Under the pieces are notes generated by a model. The model was not told the DNA's origin and did no database searches. It worked only from the letters and a program-made list of their open reading frames with translations. From Acholoe squamosa (taxonomy: Eukaryota > Annelida > Polychaeta > Phyllodocida > Polynoidae), in contig OX439040.1 in the NCBI GenBank assembly GCA_949317995.1, positions 56,268,089 through 56,332,088 of the forward strand: a stretch of DNA of 64,000 nt, in the 5' to 3' direction. The position numbers were made by a program, and so were the translations under genes. Below are positions 1,690 to 57,427 of the stretch, piece after piece; the first letter of the stretch is position 1, and each line of letters opens with the position of its first letter.

Positions 1690-2385
1690 GACAAAGGCCC
1701 TCGCCACAGTCCCTGCCTCCTGGTCCGGAAGGCACACGGCATCAGCCCATTACTATGAGAATGTGGCGGTTCTTCCTCTGGGTCCGCGGCAGCGGCCCCA
1801 TGAGGTCCATAGCCATCCTCTCCATCGGGAGAGCTACTGGAACGTGCCGCATTCCTGCGCGCGCCGGGTGGGGTGCTGACTTCTGACTCAAGCACTGTGG
1901 ACACGCCGCCAGCCATCTTATCACATCTCTCCAGTAATTGGGCCATTAATAAGTCGGCTAGACCCGAAGTGGCAGCTCAGGGGAGCCCCGTGCACCTCCG
2001 CCAAGACCACCTCTACCTGGCTATCCGGGACTACCACCTGCCCGAAGGCCCGTCCGCCCGGCTACCACCACAAGCAGGTGAGTATGCCATTCTTCACTCG
2101 GAGTCGGGGAATCTGTTCCCCCAGGGACCTCACCGCGTACGCCTCCCCAGCCAGTTCGGTTGGAGAAGGCTCTGTTCCCCTCTCCACCCAGCCTCTGACC
2201 TTACTCACTGCGGGATCCTCCCTCTGTGCTAACTGCCATCTCGCCTGTGCCCGCACATAAGGAGCACCCTCCTCTACAGGTTCCTCCCTCTCCACCTCTA
2301 CGGCCCCGGCTGCCGTCCCTTCCTGCCCCTCCTGTGCCAACTCGCTCCACGTCACTACCCTGCAACTGGTGGGATCATCATACAA
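1690..2385 (-). pseudogene. pol: Integrase N-terminal part, Gypsy element 1
   Basis: The frame from 2385 carries the RNase H-integrase linker. The zinc-binding region follows in pieces: an HGAPLSCHFG stretch at about 2000-1970, then WLAACPQCLSQK (CPQC) at about 1900, giving an HHCC-type finger interrupted by in-frame stops. The catalytic core begins with MAMDLMGPLP near 1830, which supplies the first acidic residue, and breaks at a TGA near 1750. The usual aromatic segment after HILIVM is missing, so a short deletion is likely. The next frame resumes at DAVCLPDQEA and reaches about 1680, where another shift leads into the long frame below. Confidence 0.85.
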
Positions 2386-2391
2386 GGGCGA

Positions 2392-3088
2392 TCACCCCGG
2401 GTGCTCCATGCCACATTGACCACACGGCCACTGCGACAGCCCATCGGCGTTCCCATGATTCCGTCCGGGGCGGTGTTCAATCACATGGTCAAAGGTGTCC
2501 AACAGCTGAATCCATCTAGCCACCCGTCCCTCTGGCTCTTTGAAACTGGCCAACCACTTAAGAGCAGCGTGAACTGTGCGTATCCTCACCGGCCTCCCCA
2601 CCAAGTAATGGCGGAATTTCTTAACCGCGAACACCACAGCCAGCAATTCCTTCCGAGTGACACAATAATAGGCGCTTACAACGGCTAAGGGTTCTGCTGG
2701 TGTAGGCCGGTGGCCGCTCACGCCCCTCTTGAAGCTGGGACAGGACAGCTCCTAGCCCAAAGTCACTGGCATCCGTGTCCAGTGGGAGCCGGCCTTCTGG
2801 CAGCGGGTACGCCAGTACCCGTGCGGCCGTCAGCTTCTCCTTCAGGACCTCGAACGCCTCGGCACACGACCTGTCCCAATGAAAGCACTTATTCTTTTCT
2901 GTAAGTTCCGAAAGGGGCCGTGCCACAGCGGCAAATCTTGGAACAAAACTAAGGTAATGCCCACAGAGGCCAAGGAAAGACCGCACTTCGGCCACCGTCG
3001 TACGGACAGGCCACTCACAGATGGCTGCCACCTTATCGGGATCCGTCCGGATACCATCCCCGTCGATCCGGTGTCCCAGGAAACCCAC
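2392..3088 (-). pseudogene. pol: RT connection and RNase H, Gypsy element 1
   Basis: The frame from 3088 carries the RT thumb/connection (GFLGHRIDGDGIRTDPDKV, EVRSFLGLCGHY, FAAVARPLSELT) followed by the RNase H start (PLDTDASDFGLGAVLSQ). RNase H continues in another frame from 2721 (TRKELLAVVFAVKKFRHYL) and ends HRPGRNHGNADGLSQWPC. A frameshift separates the two parts near 2650-2690. Where Gypsy elements usually have TDH before the hydrophobic helix, this copy has TVH, so a likely catalytic Asp is lost. RNase H removes the RNA strand from the hybrid. Confidence 0.9.
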
Positions 3089-4288
3089 CTCCTAGCACCA
3101 GCTGGCACTTTGTGGTTTTTGATTTTCAACCCCGCCTGCCCCAAGCGGTTCAGCACCGCCTCTAAACGCACGGCATGCTCCTCCAGAGTACTCGCAAAGA
3201 CGATGATATCGGCCAAATATATACCAAGCAAGTGGACCACTGCAAGCCCCGCATGACCACCTCCATGAGCTGCTCGAATGTCCTGGGCGCATTACACAGC
3301 CTGAATGGCATCACTCGGAACTGGAATAGTCCCCTATGCTTGACGAATGCGGTTTTAGGCTGCGAGTCCCCGTCCATGGCCACTTGCCAATATCCTGAAG
3401 CCAGGTCCAGGGTACTGAACCACTTTGCCCCTGCCATCGAATCCAACGAGTCGTCTATGCGCGGGAGCGGGTACGCGTCCTTGAGAGTAAATGCATTCAA
3501 GCGCCTGTAATCGATGCAGAAACATACGCGCCCGACTTTCTTCTTAACCAGGACCACGGGACTGGCCATGGTCCCGAGGCCGGCTCAATCACCCCCTTCT
3601 GCAGCATGTCCTCTACCTCCTTATCCACCAATGCACGCCGGTGCGGGGCCAGCGGCCGCGCCATCTTAACTGGGGCTGCCGGTCCCGTGTCAACGCAGTG
3701 GGTCACCAAATCCATCTGGCCCAACTTCCCGTCCTCCGTCTGAAACACCCAATGGTTCCGCTCAATTAGGGCCCTCCAAACAGGGTCGGCCGCCACTTTC
3801 GTGCCACCCAACAGCGAGTCCACCAGTGAGTCTCCTGGCCTGCCGCCTCCCCCTCTGGTACTCTCCATCACCATCCTGCATGACTCCGAACTTCCGCCCA
3901 CTGCCTCCCCCGTGGCCAAGTGCATGCCTCGGTATAGCGTCACCGGGTTGGGGCCTGGGTTACACACCAGCAGGGGAACTCTACCATCCGCAGGATATAC
4001 CAAAGCCCGTCCCACCCATATGCCTCGTTCGGCCTCCACCCGATTTATCCCTTCCACCACCATCTCCAGCGCCCTGGCGTTCTCAGGGACACACGCCATG
4101 ATGACTCTCTCTGTGCGCCCTTCCACGACCTTAGTCTCCTCATTAACGAGCCGGCACAGCTCACCCACGTCCTCCTCCGGCCAGAGCAGCTTCTCTCTGT
4201 GTCGACCGTAGCCCTTGTCTGCCTCAGAAAGTCTGCCCCAAGCAAGCCTGGCGTCGAGATATCGGCTATAACAAAAGTAGCCACTCAT
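2842..4288 (-). pseudogene. pol: Protease C-end and reverse transcriptase, Gypsy element 1
   Basis: At 4284-4045 one frame reads FVIADISTPGLLGADFL, the ILG-type motif closing retroviral-like aspartic proteases. The overlapping frame 4288-3497 holds the stretch leading into RT (HRRALVDKEVEDMLQKGVIEPASGPW). The RT core follows in the frame starting at 3569: VGRVCFCIDYRRLNAFT, AYPLPRIDDSLD, FSTLDLASGYWQV and FVMPF-like motifs. At the active site there is a frameshift (extra dinucleotide in a TATATAT run) and the downstream frame reads YLADIIVFA, so the YxDD box has lost one catalytic Asp. RT copies element RNA into DNA; this copy cannot. Confidence 0.93.
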
Positions 4289-4303
4289 GTCCGGGAGCCA
4301 CAG

Positions 4304-5205
4304 CGTAACTCCTGATGAGGAGACGACAAGAATTATTGCTTAGCTTCATGTACAAATTATCAAGAAATCCAGATTGAGTCGATGAGGAAATTAGAAGGCC
4401 AGTCATGAGGTCCGAATCAAAGATCAAGATAGTCATTCCCAGAGCACGTAACATGGGATTCAACAACTCGCCGCTATATAGAGGAGTTGAGTTATGGAAC
4501 AATCTCCGAGCTGATGTCCAACACAGTGAAAGTAAACTTAAATTTAAAGCAAGAATTAGGCAGATACAAGACTTGTCCAAGATGATGTTAATGGGTGATG
4601 AGCTGAATGAGCTGGATGAGTAATATGAAAAAAGATACAGGTTAGGGAGCTGTTGAAAGACTACACCTTATCCTGATTGAGTAGAGGGAGCTGTTGTTTG
4701 CTGACTACACCCTCTACTAGAATTTATTCATGTGGAGCTGTTGAAAGACTACACTGCATGAATTTCATCCATGAGCTCACAGTGACTATACTCTCATACT
4801 GTATATCTGCTGATCATCTGTTTAAGATATGTTTTGTACCTACTGATCTGTCCATATATATCCTATTGGTATAGTGTAATACATGCTAGTATAAAACTTG
4901 TTGATAGTAACAAACTGGTGTACCATGCCTGCTGCCCTTCTTTTTGAAATTTTATTGTAAGATTATAGAGGTTGCTATTTGTGTACATAGTATATACTGT
5001 TTGTTATATAGATTTTATTTTTTCTGTTTATATTATTGTTCTCATTCTTCATTGTATAAATTTCCATCTTTATTCATTGAACTATGTGCAAACAACCACT
5101 TAATGTAATAACTGAACGAGGATTCACATTATTGTCTAATTTTACCACTTTCTGTATGAATAGTGACTTGACAATAAAACATTTTCAAACCTCAAAAAAA
5201 ATTCC
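4304..5205 (+). mobile_element. 5'-truncated LINE inserted in the Gypsy protease
   Basis: This AT-rich block interrupts the GC-rich Gypsy coding region. It begins inside the C-terminus of a LINE reverse-transcriptase protein and ends with an AATAAA signal near 5174 and a short A run before Gypsy sequence resumes at about 5206. Severe 5' truncation plus a 3' A tail is the usual product of target-primed reverse transcription. I see no clear target duplication; the sequences abutting on the two sides would join almost directly. Orientation is opposite to the Gypsy element, and the insertion must be younger than it. Confidence 0.8.
4330..4623 (+). pseudogene. C-terminus of LINE ORF2 (reverse transcriptase tail)
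   Basis: The translated frame begins ELLLSFMYKLSRNPD, has an in-frame TGA at 4375-4377, and continues to a TAA at 4621-4623. Later it carries PLYRGVELWNNL followed by LKFKARIRQIQ. These match the C-terminal pattern of CR1/Jockey-like non-LTR retrotransposons: a LMYK-type motif, a YRG..LWN.L motif, then a basic FK.xLR helix. The catalytic RT motifs and the endonuclease are absent because of the 5' truncation. The internal stop confirms it is dead. The exact clade is uncertain. Confidence 0.8.
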
Positions 5206-10059: not shown

Positions 10060-10184
10060 TGCATTCAATGCTGGAGGGGGGAGGGGGAGTCAGACCGGGC
10101 ATGACAGAATTGATTTTCCATGCATTGCAAAATGGGCAAAAAACATGACGAGACATGTAGATGTGGCTTATAAGGATGAGCTTA

Positions 10185-11385
10185 TAATGAGCTCCACCAT
10201 TCTATCCATCCTGTCGGTGTTAGGCTTCAAATGCTCGTTCACCGATGCATCAGCGGTTCTCACCTGCTGTTGCATGTCCTGCTCCACCTTAAGATACGCC
10301 TCCGCCCCCACGGCTGTCATGACAGCCGCCTGCAGGTCCTTCGGTTGGGATTGGTAGACCCACTGCCTCAGGGGGTTGTCTAAACACAACAGAAACCAGT
10401 CCAAGACTGGGGTGTCTGTAGTCCCTGCGTCCGCCTCGGGGTATGCTAGCCGGGTGTACTTCATCAGGTCCTCTCGGAGTTCCTGCAACCCCTCCCCTTG
10501 GTTAGTCTGCTTGAACCGTTCCACCAACGCCTTTCGGAGTTCGGTGTACCCCTCTGGGGTAGCTGGTTTCCGACCATTCAGCAGCTGCCTAGCAGCCCCT
10601 GATAAACTCAATCCCAGGAACATACCAGCCTCTGCCTTGTCCCACCCGTTCACCTTCACACAAAGGTCAAAGTGATTGAGATAGTCCCGCAAGTTGCCCG
10701 CCCCATCATATTTGGTGGGCTTAACCACTGGTTTACCCTTTGCGCCCAGTTACCCGTCGGCTCCCCCGACCATCGCTGGCCCCGCTAGTGGTCTACTCCT
10801 TTTCTGTGCGGGGTATCCCCCCTCCTCCTCCTCCCGTTTCCTTTTGGGCATATCTTCCCTCTTCATGAGCCCCTCCTACGTCCTTGCCAGTCCCCCTTCT
10901 CTATCTTCCTTTTCCACCACCGACTTCCCTAGCCTGAGGGTCTCGAGGGCTTCGACGAGCCGTTCCCACTCGTCCTCCGATCCTTCCCCCGGTCCCCCAT
11001 CCAGCTTCCTCCGAACCGGCCCATGACGGCCTTCTTTCCTGCCCTGTGCTCTATTTCTGCCCCGCCAAGGTCCCCGAGGTGCTTCCTCCTCAGTTTCCTC
11101 CTTCTCCCAAGGCCACCGAAAGTCGTTCTCTGGACTGCCTTGTCTCGTGTCTGCCCAAACTCTGCCCTCCTCCATGGGTAGTTCCCTTTCCATGGGCTCC
11201 ACCTGCCTCTTGTGGTGCTGTTCGTCAGCCCTGTCCCCTGCTGGCCTACGTAGCACCACCTCCTCGTCCACCACCTCCAGGAGTGTCCCTCTACCAACTC
11301 CCTCTCCTGCCAATTCCAATGAATCTGGTTCAGTTATCCTAGCTTCTGCCATCTCCAAATCCTGCGCAGCTCCGTAGAGAAACAA
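10185..11385 (-). pseudogene. gag: Gag of the second Gypsy element
   Basis: One frame runs from 11385 to about 10185 with only two stops, a TAG at 10876-10878 and a TAA near 10745. The first half is highly charged (Glu, Arg, Gly). The second half is a capsid domain beginning about PTKYDGAGNLRDYLNHFDLC and passing through RKPATPEGYTELRKALVERF and LDNPLRQWVYQSQPKDLQAA. The capsid aligns with element 1 gag at 6161-5660. The zinc knuckle is missing because the copy ends at ...RMVELI. Two nonsense codons make it non-functional. Confidence 0.85.
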
Positions 11386-13899: not shown

Positions 13900-15460
13900 A
13901 AGAGACCCATCTCCAAAGTGTGCATACGTCATAATTATTGATGACCATCTCAATGGTGTGCACAGTTCATACTCATGACCTGCTGTTACAGAGACATAGG
14001 AAGCACGTCTTGATGGGGAAGGGAAGGGCGGCTCACCACTGGGGCCCTTGATGGGGGGGGGGTCCCCTCCTGCGTCTCATGTTGATTATAAGAAATGGTC
14101 ATGTCACCATGTCGATTTTAATAAATGGCATTGTCCCTGTGATGATTTTTAAGAAATGACCATGTCCTAACACTGTGTCGATTTTAAGGTATTGGCCATG
14201 TCTCATGTCGCTAAGCCAAAAAAGACTCATTTCGCCATGTTGATTTTAGGGGTCTAGAGCCATACTACTCCCACCATCAATCATCGGTTTAAGCTCAATT
14301 TCCATGGTGTGCATACATCATACACATGACCTTCCATTAGAGACCATCTCTATGGTGTGCATACATCATACACATGACCTTCCATGAGAGACCATCTCTA
14401 TGGTGTGCATACATCATATTGATGACCTTCCATTAGAGACCATTTCCATGGTGTGCATACATCATACACATGACCTTCCATGAGACACCATTTCCATGGT
14501 GTGCATAAATCATACACATGACCTTCCATGAGAGACCATCTCCATAGTGTGTGTCATATCTTGATGGTCTACGTTTAGTAGCAAGATAGCATATGGAAAA
14601 GGGCAAGACCTTGTATCAGTTGGTAGTAAGATGGTATCTATTGTAGCATGTTGTACAGAGTGTTATGTATGATGGTTCATGCTATGGCAGTGTATGTTGC
14701 TACTTGTACTCTGTTGTGGCTATGATGTTACTGCTACACTGCTCGTGGCAGGTAGGGCGCGGCCTCTATATATATATAGGCACAGCGACTGGAGTGACAC
14801 CTGGTAGCGGTGTAGGTAACCATAGTGTATTACAGGAAGCGATAGCTACAATGTATGGTATAGCATTGATATATATATGTGGTGATATTATACAATATAA
14901 AAAAGTTGAGGTTCGCAATATATAACATGTGCATACATCATACACATGACCTTCCATGAGAGACCATCTCCATGGTGTGCATACATCATACACATGACCT
15001 TCCATGAGAGACCATCTCCATGGTGTGCATACATCATACACATGACCTTCCATGAGAGACATTCTCTATGGTGTGCATACATCATACACATGACCCTCCA
15101 TGAGAGACCATCTCCATGGTGTGCATACATCATACACATGACCTTTCATGAGAGACCATTTCCATGGTGTGCATACATCATATTGATGACCTTCCATTAG
15201 AGACCATTTCCATGGTGTGGATACATCATACACATGGCCTTCCATGAGAGACCATCCCCATGGTGTGCATACATCATACACATGACCTTCCATTAGAGAC
15301 CATTTCCATGGTGTGCATACATCATACACATGACCTTCCATGAGAGACCATTTCCATGGTGTGCATACATCATATTGATGACCTGTTAGTGGCCACCCCC
15401 TGGTGTGCACATGTCATACTGATGACCTGCTCTTAGCAGTCATCTCCATTGTGTGCATGA
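13900..15460. repeat. Minisatellite, about 48 bp unit, in two blocks
   Basis: Units built on GAGACCATCTCCATGGTGTG, CATACATCATACACATGACC and TTCCATGA occur about five times at 14325-14560 and about ten times at 14929-15390. Degraded units lie at 13905-13990 and 15390-15455. The blocks are separated by 370 bp of unrelated sequence (14560-14928). The unit length is a multiple of 3, which creates long artefactual frames. Confidence 0.92.
14560..14928. other. Unique spacer splitting the 48 bp array
   Basis: This sequence has no similarity to the array on either side. It contains short TATATATA runs and no coding signal. It could be an insertion into the array, but no terminal repeats or duplication were found. 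Confidence 0.45.
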
Positions 15461-16360
15461 GTGATGCTAAAAGGGATGTGTGCATGGTAGTAGACTCATT
15501 GTAGATTTAACCAGAAACCAGTGCACATGGATGCAGGGAAGTGTGATGTATGTTAGTGTTGTAAACATGCAATGTCAATGTCAGTTGGTGTCATGTTGGT
15601 GAAGCTTCTAGTATCATTTTGGATGTGTTTTATGTGGGTTCAGGGTCCGTGGACAAGGGTGTCATATCTGCTACATAGATGTTTTATGTTACATCGTAGA
15701 TGTACTGAAAATTGAATAGTGGTATGGTCTGTATTTGTGCATATTTCTACAAGTTGATTAAGCTCCTCGTGCATATACATTAGTTCTATGTCATGTAATT
15801 GTAGCTAATTAGTAAAGGAAAGAGACTACCTGAATTTCAACCATCAATGCATTTGTTGGGCATTGCACAATTACTGTAGAATCGGAACACCCAAATCAAT
15901 TACGACAATTATTTCTACCTGGTAGTTTCTATATCAATACATTAGATCTATACTATACTTACAGTTTCTAATCACCCATACGAAGTTGTCTACCATATTT
16001 TGATCATTGCAGCAAATGAGTGCCAGCCAACCTAACACCCTATACATACATAAAGTGCACTTTGCCTGCGTATATTTAGGTGGTCTATTAGGATTCCCAG
16101 AGATGTGCCAATTGTGTGCACCCATAGTTGGCCCTAGACCACCCAGTCCCAGGCCAAGGGTGGCGATTGAGAAGGACGGGGGGTGTACCCAGGTATTGAT
16201 TATCATCGCCCTCACTTTCTACACACGTGTTTCCTTCTTAACCTTTCCATGTATCACCAGAATCTCTATCCCACTAGGAGCATATCTCTTTGCATTATTT
16301 TAGGGAACGGTGGCCCGATTTTTTAAAAGGGATGCATAGAGAAGGGATGCATACTTGACC
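15461..16360. other. Non-coding DNA between minisatellites
   Basis: No gene or repeat was recognised. Confidence 0.5.
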
Positions 16361-17532
16361 CTATAAAAGGAGTATGACATCATGCATCAGCAACCCTCTA
16401 TAGGGACATAGCAGATTATAAAAGGAGTATGACGTCATGCCTCAGCAACCCCCCTGTAGGGACATAGCAGATTATAAAAGGAGTGTGACATCATGCATCA
16501 GCAACCCCCCTGTAGGGACATAGCAGATTATAAAAGGAGTATGACATCATGCCTCAGCAACCCCCCTGTAGGGACATAGCAGATTATAAAAGGAGTATGA
16601 CATCATGCCTCAGCAACCCCCCTGTAGGGACATAGCAGATTATAAAAGGAGTGTGACATCATGCATCAGCAACCCCCCTGTAGGGACATAGCAAATTATA
16701 AAAGGAGTATGACATCATGCCTCAGCAACCCCCTATAGGGACATATCAGATTATAAAAGGAGTATGACATCATGCCTCAGCAACCCCCTATAGGGACATA
16801 GCAGATAATAAAAGGAGTATGACATCATGCCTCAGCAACCCCCTATAGGGACATAGCAGATTATAAAAGGGGTGTGACATCATGCATCAGCAACCCCCCT
16901 GTAGGGACATAGCAGATTATAAAAGGAGTATGACATCATGCCTCAGCAACCCCCCCTGTAGGGACATAGCAGATTATAAAAGGAGTATGACATCATGCAT
17001 CAGCAACCCCCCTGTAGGGACATAGCAGATTATAAAAGGAGTATGACATTATGCCTCAGCAACCCCCTATAGGGACATAGCAGATTATAAAAGGAGTATG
17101 ACATCATGCATCAGCAACCCCCCTATAGGGACATAGCAGATTATAAAAGGAGTATGACGTCATGCATCAGCAACCCCCCTGTAGGGACATAGCAGATTAT
17201 AAAAGGAGTATGACATCATGCCTCAGCAACCCCCCTGTAGGGGCATAGCAGATTATAAAAGGAGTATGACATCATGCCTCAGCAACCCCCCTGTAGGGAC
17301 ATAGCAGATTATAAAAGGTGTATGACATCATGCCTCAGCAACCCCCCTGTAGGAACATAGCAGATTATAAAAGGAGTATGACATCATGCCTCAGCAACCC
17401 CCTATAGGGACATAGCAGATTATAAAAGGAGTATGACATCATGCATCAGCATCCCCCCTATAGGGACATAGCAGATTATAAAAGGAGTATGACATCATGC
17501 ATCAGCAACCCCCCTGTAGGGACATAGCAGAT
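16361..17532 (+). repeat. Minisatellite, 56 bp unit, about 21 copies
   Basis: The unit starts TATAAAAGGAGTATGACATC, then ATGCATCAGCAACCCCCCTG, then TAGGGACATAGCAGAT. Units are highly alike, with variants at a few fixed places (GCATCAG/GCCTCAG, CCTATAGGG/CCTGTAGGG, TGACATCA/TGACGTCA). Homogeneity suggests recent expansion or frequent unequal exchange. Each unit contains a TATAAAAGG word and a TGACATCA or TGACGTCA word. Confidence 0.96.
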
Positions 17533-17670
17533 TGATGAGTAGCTCATGCCCGGGAGCTCATGATCCAATTTTGGCTACATTAGGCTGGAAAAGTCCCTCG
17601 CTGTGAGAATGTTTGTAATTAATTCATATGTTCTAAGCGCACAATTCATGCCAGAGACGTATAGAGGTAA

Positions 17671-25337: not shown

Positions 25338-25818
25338 TTACGGATGATACCGTGCTAAAGGTTGATTTTGTGGTCTGGCTTCACTTTGTTGATAACTAGG
25401 CCTACATTAGCCACTTTCGTACCCCTACTATGACTCCCGTTCCTCTCCCGTCAGTAGGAACGGCAGACCCGTGACACAGACGATGTTCAGTCTAGGCCTA
25501 CATGTACACATCGTGGCTGAGAATCATTTTTTAAACATTATCTTTAAAAGGAGAGGAGGTATTTTATAAACAAGACGAGACGTACATATGAGGAAGTACA
25601 CCATATCTCACCTCTTAATCATAGGCCTCCTTCACTCCAAACAAGAAATGGCTTGTCCCTATATGACCCCATCCCCTCATACCCGCCAATATTAACCCCA
25701 TTTACAGAATCCCCTTGGAGGTGCCTCCAGTGGTGCCAATGGATGTCGGGCGGCTTGTATTATATCACACACTGTTGGCAGGCAGTGTGAGAGCATGTAG
25801 CCATATCTGAACGCTATT
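25338..25818. other. Non-coding DNA
   Basis: No gene was recognised. Confidence 0.5.
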
Positions 25819-26475
25819 GCATATGGCATTGTAGTGATGGGGCGATACTGATAAAAGGGGTCTATAGAGTCGGGGGGAGGGGGTAAATTATTGCATATGG
25901 CATTGTAGTGATGGGGCGATACTGATAGAAGGGGTCTATAGAGTCGGGGGAGGGGGTAAATTATTGCATATGGCATTGTAGTGATGGGACGATACTGATA
26001 GAAGGGGTCTATAGAGTCGGGGGGAGGGGGTAAATTATTGCATATGGCATTGTAGTGATGGGACGATACTGATAGAAGGGGTCTATAGAGTCGGGGGGAG
26101 GGGGTAAATTATTGCATATGGCATTGTAGTGATAGGGCGATACTGATAGAACGGGTCTATAGAGTCGGGGGAGGGGGTAAATTATTGCATATGGCATTGT
26201 AGTGATGGGGCGATACTGATAGAAGGTGTCTATAGAGTCGGGGGAGGGGGTAATTTATTGCATATGGCATTGTAGTGATAGGGCAATACTGATAGAACGG
26301 GTCTATAGAGTCGGGGGAGGGGGTAAATTATTGCATATGGCATTGTAGTGATGGGGCGATACTGATAGAAGGTGTCTATAGAGTCGGGGGAGGGGGTAAA
26401 TTATTGCATATGGCATTGTAGTGATGGGGTGATACTGATAGAAGGGATCTATAGAGTCGGGGGAGGGGGTAAATT
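25819..26475. repeat. Minisatellite, 73-74 bp unit, about 9 copies
   Basis: The unit begins GCATATGGCATTGTAGTGAT, continues GGGGCGATACTGATAGAAGG and ends GTCTATAGAGTCGGGGGAGG with GGGTAAATTATT. Copies differ by few bases and by G-run length. The G-rich stretch recurs every unit. Confidence 0.95.
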
Positions 26476-39460: not shown

Positions 39461-40217
39461 GTGCCGCAGCCTGTGTGTTATACAGTTCTGCGTACTCATG
39501 TACTGTGCCGCAGCCTGTGTGTTATACAGTTCTGCGTACTCATGTACTGTGCCGCAGCCTGTGTGTTATACAGTTCTGCGTACTCATGTACTGTGCCGCA
39601 GCCTGTGTGTTATACAGTTCTGCGTACTCATGTACTGTGCCGCAGCCTGTGAGTTATACAGTTCTGCGTACTCATGTACTGTGCTGCAGCGTGTGTGTTA
39701 TACAGTTCTGCGTACTCATGTACTGTGCCGCAGCCTGTGTGTTATACAGTTCTGCATACACATGTACTGTGCTGCAGCGTGTGTGTTATACAGTTCTGCG
39801 TACACATGTACTGTGTCTCAGCCTGTGTGTTATACAGTTCTGCGTACTCATGTACTGTGCTGCAGCCTGTGTGTTATACAGTTCTGCATACACATGTACT
39901 GTGCTGCAGCCTGTGTGTTATACAGTTCTGCATACACATGTACTGTGCTGCAGCCTGTGTGTTATACAGTTCTGCGTACTCATGTACTGTGCTGCAGCCT
40001 GTGTGTTATACAGTTCTGCGTACTCATGTACTGTGCTGCAGCCTGTGTGTTATACAGTTCTGCGTACACATGTACTGTCCCGCAGCCTGTGTGTTATACA
40101 GTTCTGCGTACTCATGTACTGTCCCGCAGCCTGTGTGTTATACAGTTCTGCGTACACATGTACTGTCCCGCAGCCTGTGTGTTATACAGTTCTGCGTACT
40201 CAGGTACTGTGCCGCAG
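39461..40217 (+). repeat. Minisatellite, 44 bp unit, about 17 copies
   Basis: The unit starts GTGCCGCAGCCTGTGTGTTA, then TACAGTTCTGCGTACTCATG, and ends TACT. Variants (GCCGCAG/GCTGCAG/CCCGCAG; TACTCATG/TACACATG) are spread in blocks. One more unit continues at 40401-40433 after the inserted SINE-like element. Because 44 is not divisible by 3 and the unit lacks stops, all three plus frames stay open (285, 244 and 255 codons); these are artefacts. Confidence 0.97.
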
Positions 40218-43400: not shown

Positions 43401-43961
43401 CAGGCTTGTGTTTTGTCCAACCCCTAGTCTTTGATACAGGTCCGTCTTAGAGACATCTGACACCCTGGAAGAGTGTGGGGGTACATAGCCTAGAAATGCT
43501 ATCAACTGTAAAGCATAAGGAACCTCAGCACATGTACAATTAACTACTATTCAGTGAATGTCCCGACAAGCAGATTTATTTTATATCTGTCTGCGGTTTG
43601 TGGTGAAGAAAACAACTTTTCTGGCTACCGAGCCTTGGTTGCAGCAACCAGATGATAAGAGAAAAAGAAAACGAAGAAAAGGCAAAAGAAAATACCAGCA
43701 GGACAATTTGTTCCATTAATTTATATCAGTCCAAGCTGGCCCCGGCACATCCATAGGCATATTTTAGGGAAATGAAGCTGTAGAGGCTTATTCCAAAAGT
43801 GGAATGTCTACCAAGTACATTTTATGTAGAAGGCTAGAAACTAGTCTTTCTCTAACAGTTCTTAGAGAATTCACGTTCCACAGTTACCTACGCCTCTCTA
43901 TGTATGGTAACAAAAACAATAGAAGGAAACTGTGTTTCATGTTACCTAGCAACGTTCTAAG
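40434..43961. other. AT-rich non-coding DNA
   Basis: About 3.5 kb with no recognisable gene or repeat. Confidence 0.5.
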
Positions 43962-44183
43962 TGTAGTGGTCAGCGGAAAATGTCATGGAGAAACCGGAAC
44001 TCGAACCCGGGACCCTCCAACTTCGAAGCGGCTGCTCTTCCTCTGAGCTATTTCCCCTGGCCTGACATTTCCACCTTCCATCCACACCTGGATCGGTATG
44101 ATACACACTAGGGGGGGCAGTGATTACCCGGAGACCCGCCCCTGGGGGTCTGCCACCGAGTACAGGGAATTACTGCCCCTACA
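43962..44183 (-). repeat. 3' LTR of the TRIM
   Basis: Same length and near-identical sequence to 44281-44502, preceded on the minus strand by the polypurine tract. Confidence 0.9.
43987..44057 (-). other. tRNA-like sequence in the 3' LTR of the TRIM
   Basis: Same 71 nt structure as 44306-44376, with the D arm GCTC/GAGC intact and the T stem CCGGG/TCCGG. Confidence 0.8.
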
Positions 44184-44196
44184 CTCCTCCCCATCA
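44184..44196 (-). promoter_or_regulatory. Polypurine tract of the TRIM
   Basis: Minus-strand GATGGGGAGGAG abuts the 3' LTR. Such tracts prime plus-strand DNA synthesis in LTR elements. Confidence 0.75.
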
Positions 44197-44265
44197 GCTT
44201 CAACCAACCCTGCTCCTCCAACCCGGGGTTCCCGTACCTTCAATCCGTGAATGCGTTAGGATGCT

Positions 44266-44279
44266 CGGTTTCTCCACCA
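44266..44279 (-). promoter_or_regulatory. Primer-binding site of the TRIM
   Basis: Minus-strand TGGTGGAGAAACCG begins one base inside the LTR. Its complement is CGGTTTCTCCACCA, which equals the 3' end of the tRNA-like sequence in the element's own LTR (…CGGTTTCTCCA) with CCA added. Confidence 0.88.
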
Positions 44280-44280
44280 A

Positions 44281-44502
44281 TGTAGTGGTCAGCGGAAAAT
44301 GTCATGGAGAAACCGGGACTCGAACCTAGGACCCTCCAACTTCGAAGCGGCTGCTCTTCCTCTGAGCTATTTCCCCTGGCCTGACATTTCCACCTTCCAT
44401 CCACACCTGGATCGGTATGATACACACTAGGGGGGGCAGTTATTACCCGGAGACCCGCCCCTGGGGGTCTGCCCCCGAGTACAGGGAATTACTGCCCCTA
44501 CA
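44281..44502 (-). repeat. 5' LTR of the TRIM
   Basis: On the minus strand this is the upstream LTR, running from 44502 (TGTAGGGGCAGTAATTCCC) to 44281 (GCTGACCACTACA). It is followed by the primer site. Confidence 0.9.
44306..44376 (-). other. tRNA-like sequence in the 5' LTR of the TRIM
   Basis: The 71 nt read as a cloverleaf: acceptor GGGGAAA/TTTCTCC (one G-U), D arm GCTC/GAGC, T arm with a TTCGAGT loop and a 5 bp stem, and a 5 nt variable loop. The A-box-like TAGCTCAGAGG and B-box-like GGTTCGAGTCC match Pol III promoter consensus well. The anticodon arm is poor: the self-complementary CTTCGAAG makes the anticodon ambiguous and the stem has only two Watson-Crick pairs. It is unlikely to be a translating tRNA, but could be transcribed by Pol III. 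Confidence 0.8.
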
Positions 44503-44519
44503 TAAGTAGCAAGAGAGAG

Positions 44520-57169: not shown

Positions 57170-57224
57170 TGCTCCCTTATAGAATTCATGCTTGCAAGTG
57201 TAGGGGTTTGAGCCTCCAGAGGCC

Positions 57225-57427
57225 AGCTCACTTGGTGGTCACTCCCCCTATGTATACCATACCGATCCAGAGGTAGGTGGAAGGTGGAAATGTCAGTGGG
57301 GCCGTGTTGGTGACAGGGTATGTCAGGCCAGGGGAAATACCTCAGAGGAAGAGCTTCCGCTTCGAAGTTAGAGGGTCCCAGGTTCGAGTCCCGGTTTCTC
57401 CAAGAGACGTTTTCGCCGACCTCTACA
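57225..57427 (+). repeat. Diverged solo LTR of the TRIM family
   Basis: The stretch runs from the ACCATACCGATCCAG region through GGTGGAAATGTCAG, the tRNA-like segment and CGCCGACCTCTACA. It matches the TRIM LTR read on the plus strand. The first part of the LTR is poorly conserved, and a short duplication (TGTCAG...TGTCAGG) interrupts it. No partner LTR or interior is nearby, so it is a solo LTR or a fragment. Confidence 0.75.
57331..57401 (+). other. tRNA-like sequence in the solo LTR
   Basis: 71 nt with acceptor GGGGAAA/TTTCTCC and a T arm CCAGG-TTCGAGT-CCCGG region. The D stem is damaged (CCTC against GAGC). The same CTTCGAAG lies at the anticodon loop, and an A follows the acceptor stem, as in the TRIM copies. 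Confidence 0.7.

Follow-up and report, generated by a model that had tools for sequence, protein, structure and literature searches.

LTR retroelements are primed mostly by host tRNAs. The closest described relatives of the element studied here are the Helenus elements, TRIMs with a tRNA in the LTR that occur in fungi, plants and six animal phyla (Kojima 2024, PMC10886601). In the available parts of that paper, complementarity between the LTR tRNA and the primer binding site (PBS) is stated not to be found in Helenus, from which Kojima concludes that the tRNA plays no part in starting reverse transcription. The same text assigns the PBSs of bivalve Helenus to host tRNAs, reports tandem arrays for a zebrafish Helenus, and describes animal Helenus as mobilised by Gypsy-type elements, with 4-bp target duplications (PMC10886601). 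Where Helenus is named in a meeting report of 2026, only its transcription is mentioned in the accessible portion (PMC12859917), and no report of an LTR tRNA matching the PBS of its own element was found in the openly accessible literature searched.

By its sequence, the element described here belongs to the Helenus kind, which is already known. It lies in the window, the whole stretch of 64,000 nucleotides of Acholoe squamosa DNA that was analysed. Like Helenus in the published text available, it has the size of a TRIM and an LTR tRNA in which boxes A and B can be read, and it also occurs as solo LTRs and in tandem; it is short and, judged by the length of its interior, non-coding, with a PBS and a polypurine tract just inside the LTRs. 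The 4-bp duplications (TAAG in the window, and perfect in 23 of 33 rows of the genome set described below) resemble those of animal Helenus. Unlike Helenus as published in that text, its PBS fits the LTR tRNA itself over 14 nt, and the two co-vary between subfamilies.

Other systems share single traits with it, as far as the accessible descriptions go. The plant TRIM Cassandra also has a small RNA gene of Pol III type inside its LTRs, Pol III use being probable in our element; the LTRs of Cassandra, however, hold 5S rRNA, which is no primer, while here they hold a tRNA that matches the element's own PBS, and Rfam at its gathering threshold finds no 5S rRNA in the LTR of the window element. Independence from a host tRNA primer would be shared with the self-priming Tf1; the difference is that our element implies a 3' end of tRNA type that bears CCA (PMC6934838, PMC5371799, both in part). 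Ty3 differs in being autonomous, in its bipartite PBS and in its primer, the host initiator tRNA-Met, which is not borne by the element (PMC5371799, in part).

The TRIM occupies 43962-44502 of the window, 541 bp with the minus strand as sense; its parts are listed in Table 1. A preliminary description of this DNA had reported two 222 bp LTRs, a TAAG duplication and a 97 bp interior with PBS and purine tract, all of which we recovered at the positions in the table, the two LTRs differing at five positions. It had also called the TRIM complete, which does not hold. The interiors read elsewhere are 198-199 bp long (21 of 21), and of the 33 rows of the genome set with two or more full LTRs 27 have a length of 640-647 bp, so the window copy has lost about 102 bp and derives by deletion from a longer family form.

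Table 1. Features of the TRIM and of a related solo LTR, in positions of the window.
Feature	Position	Strand	Basis
5' LTR, 222 bp, ends TGTA...TACA	44281..44502	-	LTR comparison
3' LTR, 222 bp, 5 differences from 5' LTR	43962..44183	-	LTR comparison
Interior, 97 bp, without about 102 bp seen in the other copies read	44184..44280	-	
Polypurine tract GATGGGGAGGAG, adjoins 3' LTR	44184..44195	-	sequence
Target duplication TAAG, left	43958..43961	.	sequence
Target duplication TAAG, right	44503..44506	.	sequence
PBS TGGTGGAGAAACCG, 14/14 to LTR tRNA 3' end plus CCA	44266..44279	-	sequence
tRNA-derived sequence in 5' LTR	44305..44376	-	ARAGORN; Rfam RF00005 42.1 bits
tRNA-derived sequence in 3' LTR	43986..44057	-	ARAGORN; Rfam RF00005 44.6 bits
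Box A TAGCTCAGAGG, 5' LTR	44359..44369	-	sequence; motif partly in PMC10886601 (available parts)
Box B GGTTCGAGTCC, 5' LTR	44316..44326	-	sequence; motif partly in PMC10886601 (available parts)
TTTT, candidate Pol III terminator, 5' LTR, 5 nt past tRNA	44296..44299	-	
TTTT, candidate Pol III terminator, 3' LTR	43977..43980	-	
Solo LTR, related subfamily, flanks CAAG/CAAA (3/4)	57199..57427	+	sequence comparison
tRNA in related solo LTR	57331..57402		ARAGORN; Rfam RF00005 32.6 bits

Each LTR contains one tRNA on the minus strand, which ARAGORN reads as Ser-CGA from its anticodon position. A cloverleaf of 71 nt per LTR had been proposed earlier; the tRNA is confirmed in both LTRs, with a length of 72 nt by ARAGORN. 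At the gathering threshold Rfam finds three tRNAs only in the window, those of the two LTRs and of the solo LTR (cut-off for RF00005: 29 bits). The combination of an acceptor pair G3:U70 with A73 is the identity rule of tRNA-Ala. Both are present in the window LTR tRNA, which we therefore take to be of alanine type, despite the CGA at the anticodon position. Two pairs of its anticodon stem are broken in the Rfam model alignment, and the lowest-energy fold is not the cloverleaf, with 15 and 22 of 200 shuffles folding at least as well. For the tRNA of the solo LTR the corresponding number is 151 of 200. Leader and trailer on either side of this tRNA, for example at 44293-44389 (minus), are inverted repeats of each other (AAATGTCA / TGACATTT), and in the predicted fold they lengthen the acceptor stem. 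Boxes A and B together with a TTTT, which on the sense strand of the whole element occurs only 5 nt beyond the tRNA of each LTR, are consistent with the Pol III promoter of tRNA type suggested before.

Elsewhere in the window there are Gypsy-type remnants at 2062-4339 and at 10168-10749 (minus), the latter gag-like with a weak SCAN match; for this reading frame six related proteins were found, three of them with a SCAN domain. Tandem arrays lie at 14200-15507, 16362-17533, 25815-26475 and 39461-40217, their units being spaced at about 48, 56, 73 and 88 bp. The observed/expected ratio of CpG in the DNA studied is 0.48.

One base separates the 5' LTR from the PBS, which is exactly complementary to the tRNA end CGGTTTCTCCA plus CCA, as first described (14 of 14), with mismatches to the LTR tRNA at positions 15, 17 and 18. 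The 11 nt of the match that belong to the tRNA stop precisely at its last base, and an 11-nt match anywhere in the LTR was obtained for 2 of 3000 shuffled 24-mers. A second PBS, TGGTGGAGAAACAG at 283-270 (minus), was rejected, as it lies within a reading frame and has no LTR end before it. In a comparison with metazoan tRNA ends, the contiguous match of the PBS is 14 for the LTR tRNA versus 10 for tRNA-Ala. Over 18 nt, the metazoan tRNA-Ala end agrees at 15 positions, a tie with the LTR tRNA. This tie would fit the reading that a host tRNA, probably tRNA-Ala, is the primer and the LTR tRNA only a Pol III promoter, the two being alike through common descent from tRNA-Ala. Such a reading is also in line with the Ala-like character of the LTR tRNAs (ARAGORN calls tRNA-Ala(TGC) in four of the six type 2/3 loci given to it, L061, L068, L073 and L083, the cloverleaf being complete in L068 and with one mismatch in L061) and with the host tRNAs that Kojima gives the PBSs of bivalve Helenus (PMC10886601, available parts). 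The copies in the genome make us regard it as unlikely.

We searched the host genome (1.48 Gb in 63 contigs) with the element, which gave 89 matches from 40 scored among 2342 candidates, and fetched 39 loci around them. In all 78 LTR matches that span at least 200 columns, shorter pieces being excluded, the alignment covers the tRNA, so the tRNA-like segment is indeed present in all LTR copies of this length. The LTRs of the 33 rows differ from each other by 0.5 to 4.1%. Target duplications are perfect in 23 rows, agree at three of four positions in nine and at one of four in one (L011), these rows being not wholly independent since L028 and L040, as well as L009 and L020, have common flanks. 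In eight of the nine rows with three agreeing positions (L038, L033, L016, L041, L023, L022, L028/L040) the mismatch is at the last base, a G on the 5' side (CTAG/CTAA, ATAG/ATAC etc.), as if one G of the polypurine tract had been retained at the end of the element. Variation among the copies is 1.26% in the tRNA columns and 1.45% in U3; in the box B columns, which are shifted by one, it is 2.56%, above both. The TTTT after the tRNA has no mismatch in 311 cells among the LTR copies. Tandem arrays of the order LTR-interior-LTR-interior-LTR are seen in L083/L084 and in L009 (G000:C18:41218700-41220000), the latter with three LTRs.

To study how tRNA and PBS change together, we used a genome-wide pattern of an LTR end followed by a PBS with a letter other than A at position 10. 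The tRNA is not part of this pattern, so the test of co-variation is fair. It is present at 221 places, 30 of which were fetched. In the window family the tRNA end CGGTTTCTCCA goes with the PBS TGGTGGAGAAACCG. In 26 of the 30 loci the tRNA has G67, its end being CGGTGTCTCCA or close to this, and the PBS is TGGTGGAGACACCG with C10 (L083 and L084 are one array). In one further locus, L062, the tRNA TATCTCCA with A67 stands with the PBS TGGTGGAGATACCG with T10. The exceptions are L071, a misfit of A67 with C10, L082, which lacks the 3' half of the tRNA there, and L081, a foldback.

A pooled set, after removal of 27 repeat readings, holds 92 readings of tRNA and PBS from 85 loci. The loci were chosen by likeness to the window element (L001-L047), by a self-matching PBS (L048-L058), by the PBS (L061-L090) and by the tRNA end (L091-L120). 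At PBS positions 4 to 14 the number of complementary readings out of 92 is 92, 88, 88, 90, 88, 90, 87, 89, 89, 77 and 80, while at positions 15 to 18 it is 8, 89, 10 and 12; the full match of 14 of 14 is found in 64 readings. For tRNA position 67 and PBS position 10 the pairs are T/A in 59, G/C in 27, A/T in one and non-complementary in five. A recount with a cleaner test of the T-loop, in which the foldbacks L031 and L081 were dropped and chance TGGs in flanks (L081 on the plus strand, L088, and L119 on the minus strand) were kept, gives 86 complementary readings of 91 at 67/10, from 84 loci and 77 distinct 100-nt cores. In this genome complementarity of tRNA and PBS at positions 4-14 is the rule, and it drops at position 15.

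Since the copies share a common ancestry, the paired changes may go back to as few as two independent events. Beyond position 14 the tails vary by subfamily (AGCA, AGTG, AGTT, AGTA, AGCT). In L127 the LTR tRNA has T62 and the PBS matches it over 16 of 16, so that the frequent A15 could be left over from an earlier LTR tRNA; in L128, the only other readable pair beside it, the PBS does not match its own tRNA.

If a host tRNA were the primer, the co-variation at 67/10 would require several host tRNAs, each with a matching LTR. Further, a host tRNA with the end TGCTCGGTTTCTCCA, which would fit the PBS of the window family over 18 nt, was considered as its primer and rejected, since whole-genome patterns for such a gene, which required C56 and a purine at 57, have no match. 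Further ends of the type GGTTTCTCCA, outside the trailer of the window family itself, are found at 947 places. All 30 that were read have LTR-tRNA surroundings, and no stand-alone tRNA gene was seen among them; a recognisable LTR tail follows the tRNA in 28, while L095 and L109 break off there. The combination C61 T62, which gives a 16-nt match, is present at 35 places. The 11 read, all of type CGACT, are ten LTR tRNAs, of which five have one common flank and two another, and one sequence that is no tRNA. In the material examined, therefore, it is neither the case that most copies lack the tRNA nor that an unrelated tRNA fits the PBS better. The tRNA and hairpin patterns had no matches in the viral and genome contig collections scanned.

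Three insertions (L028/L040, L049 and L054) carry 16-20 nt copied from the LTR tRNA, close to the length that remains from a tRNA primer, and the 19-mer TTGGTGGAGAAACCGGGAC has seven exact occurrences in the genome. L028 and L040 are a single insertion in duplicated flanks, with the target duplication CAAG/CAAC. In this insertion and in L049, which belongs to another LTR subfamily but has the identical 18 nt, the PBS is the exact 18-nt complement TGGTGGAGAAACCGGGAC, after which the family interior resumes; in L028/L040 the tract could be 18-20 nt long since positions 19-20 are identical in the tRNA complement and the interior. Both LTRs of L028/L040 carry C63G, and the PBS fits the tRNA of the family and not its own, as if the primer had come in trans, from a different copy or source. 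In L054 the LTR is followed by a T, then by 16-20 nt complementary to the primer, and directly after them by the flanking DNA. L054/L055 (G000:C17) is a chimera of a type 2 LTR piece with PBS, interior, type 1 LTR and primer complement; it sits within a long reading frame, and about 100 bp of its target are duplicated. The number of self-matching 18-nt sites, seven, is inflated because loci were partly chosen for such a PBS; in the set not selected by PBS they are found in three of 41 readings, which are two insertions. According to the accessible part of one study, plus-strand copying of the primer tRNA halts at m1A58, giving 18 nt (PMC13191261).

In L047, L050 and L051 the PBS continues unbroken into the tRNA, complete and in antisense, and on into U3, in L047 also into the interior. 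L081 starts in the same way (26 letters read), L031 is the reverse join, and L120, where an LTR end directly adjoins an inverted piece of LTR tail, is probably another foldback. The perfect CTAT duplication of L047 indicates that its join was formed before integration. The joins in L047, L050 and L051 may have arisen when a long primer RNA was copied through, or when the strand was switched at the 11 nt that PBS and tRNA share. Copying of the first kind would fit a variant of the self-supplied primer favoured below, in which the primer is no free tRNA but the 3' end of the element's own RNA after processing, with the tRNA plus CCA at the end of the 3' LTR, acting in cis or between two RNAs. 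We consider this variant quite unlikely, as the 18-nt tracts in L028/L040 and L049 are in keeping with a free tRNA that is modified, and the joins are explained equally well by strand switching. Strand switching between PBS and LTR tRNA could in turn homogenise the two and create complementarity that has no role in priming, and the foldbacks together with the reverse join show that such joins do occur. Those read in L047, L050 and L051 bring in the whole antisense tRNA rather than 14 nt, however, while the typical PBS keeps letters foreign to the tRNA at 15, 17 and 18, with an identical edge in several subfamilies, and the process needs homology that exists beforehand; we hold homogenisation to be quite unlikely. 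The preliminary description had offered, as an alternative, that the element captured its tRNA when the primer was read through. Read-through places the tRNA behind the LTR and in antisense orientation (L047, L050, L051 and, by its first 26 letters, L081), while the LTR tRNA sits in sense within the LTR, and capture by this route is not supported.

We consider it probable that the family supplies its own primer, derived from tRNA(Ala), and that the gene in the LTR is both a Pol III promoter and the source of the primer. This idea, raised when the element was first described, is strengthened by the co-variation between subfamilies and by the insertions with an 18-nt PBS templated by the tRNA. 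Pol III would start at the LTR tRNA, with transcripts that stop at TTTT giving short pre-tRNAs and those that read through giving the RNA of the element. The 3' end would then be cut after A73 and CCA added, as suggested by a PBS that starts with TGG, the complement of CCA. The tRNA end, from the same or another copy of the family, would pair with the PBS over the approximately 14 nt of observed complementarity, and the Gypsy-type enzymes of another element would copy and integrate the TRIM, a helper to which the observed 4-bp duplications point. Selection for pairing would keep tRNA and PBS complementary while both change.

The mismatches at PBS positions 15, 17 and 18 indicate that copying of 18 nt from the LTR tRNA is not the rule. 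They are not fatal to a primer supplied by the element, since in Ty3, according to the text available, the primer tRNA does not pass its letters on to the PBS, and 12 nt of it are copied into the plus strand (PMC5371799). With a Gypsy-like helper, the letters of the PBS would likewise be set by the template and selection would act on pairing alone, so that mismatches at positions 15-18 could persist. Other points that weigh against a self-supplied primer are the broken anticodon-stem pairs and unremarkable fold of the window tRNA, a variation of the tRNA columns as high as that of U3, the five readings non-complementary at 67/10, the misfit in L128, the tie with tRNA-Ala over 18 nt and Kojima's failure to find such a match in Helenus. 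On balance we lean towards an element that carries its own primer gene, in which tRNA and PBS are a private pair that evolves together, free of the tRNA set of the host.

With the anatomy, the complementarity, the co-variation and the 18-nt tracts as direct observations, the feature breaks the published generalisation on Helenus; a self-supplied primer is the best reading of it, short of proof. If this is true, the negative conclusion printed on Helenus would be reversed for this lineage, and there would be a second reason, besides the role as promoter, for tRNA genes in LTRs. Self-priming would be testable by swapping letters in the 14-nt pair. In such genomes, LTR parts could account for many of the predicted tRNA genes, and an element that brings its own primer would have a possible escape from dependence on host tRNAs.
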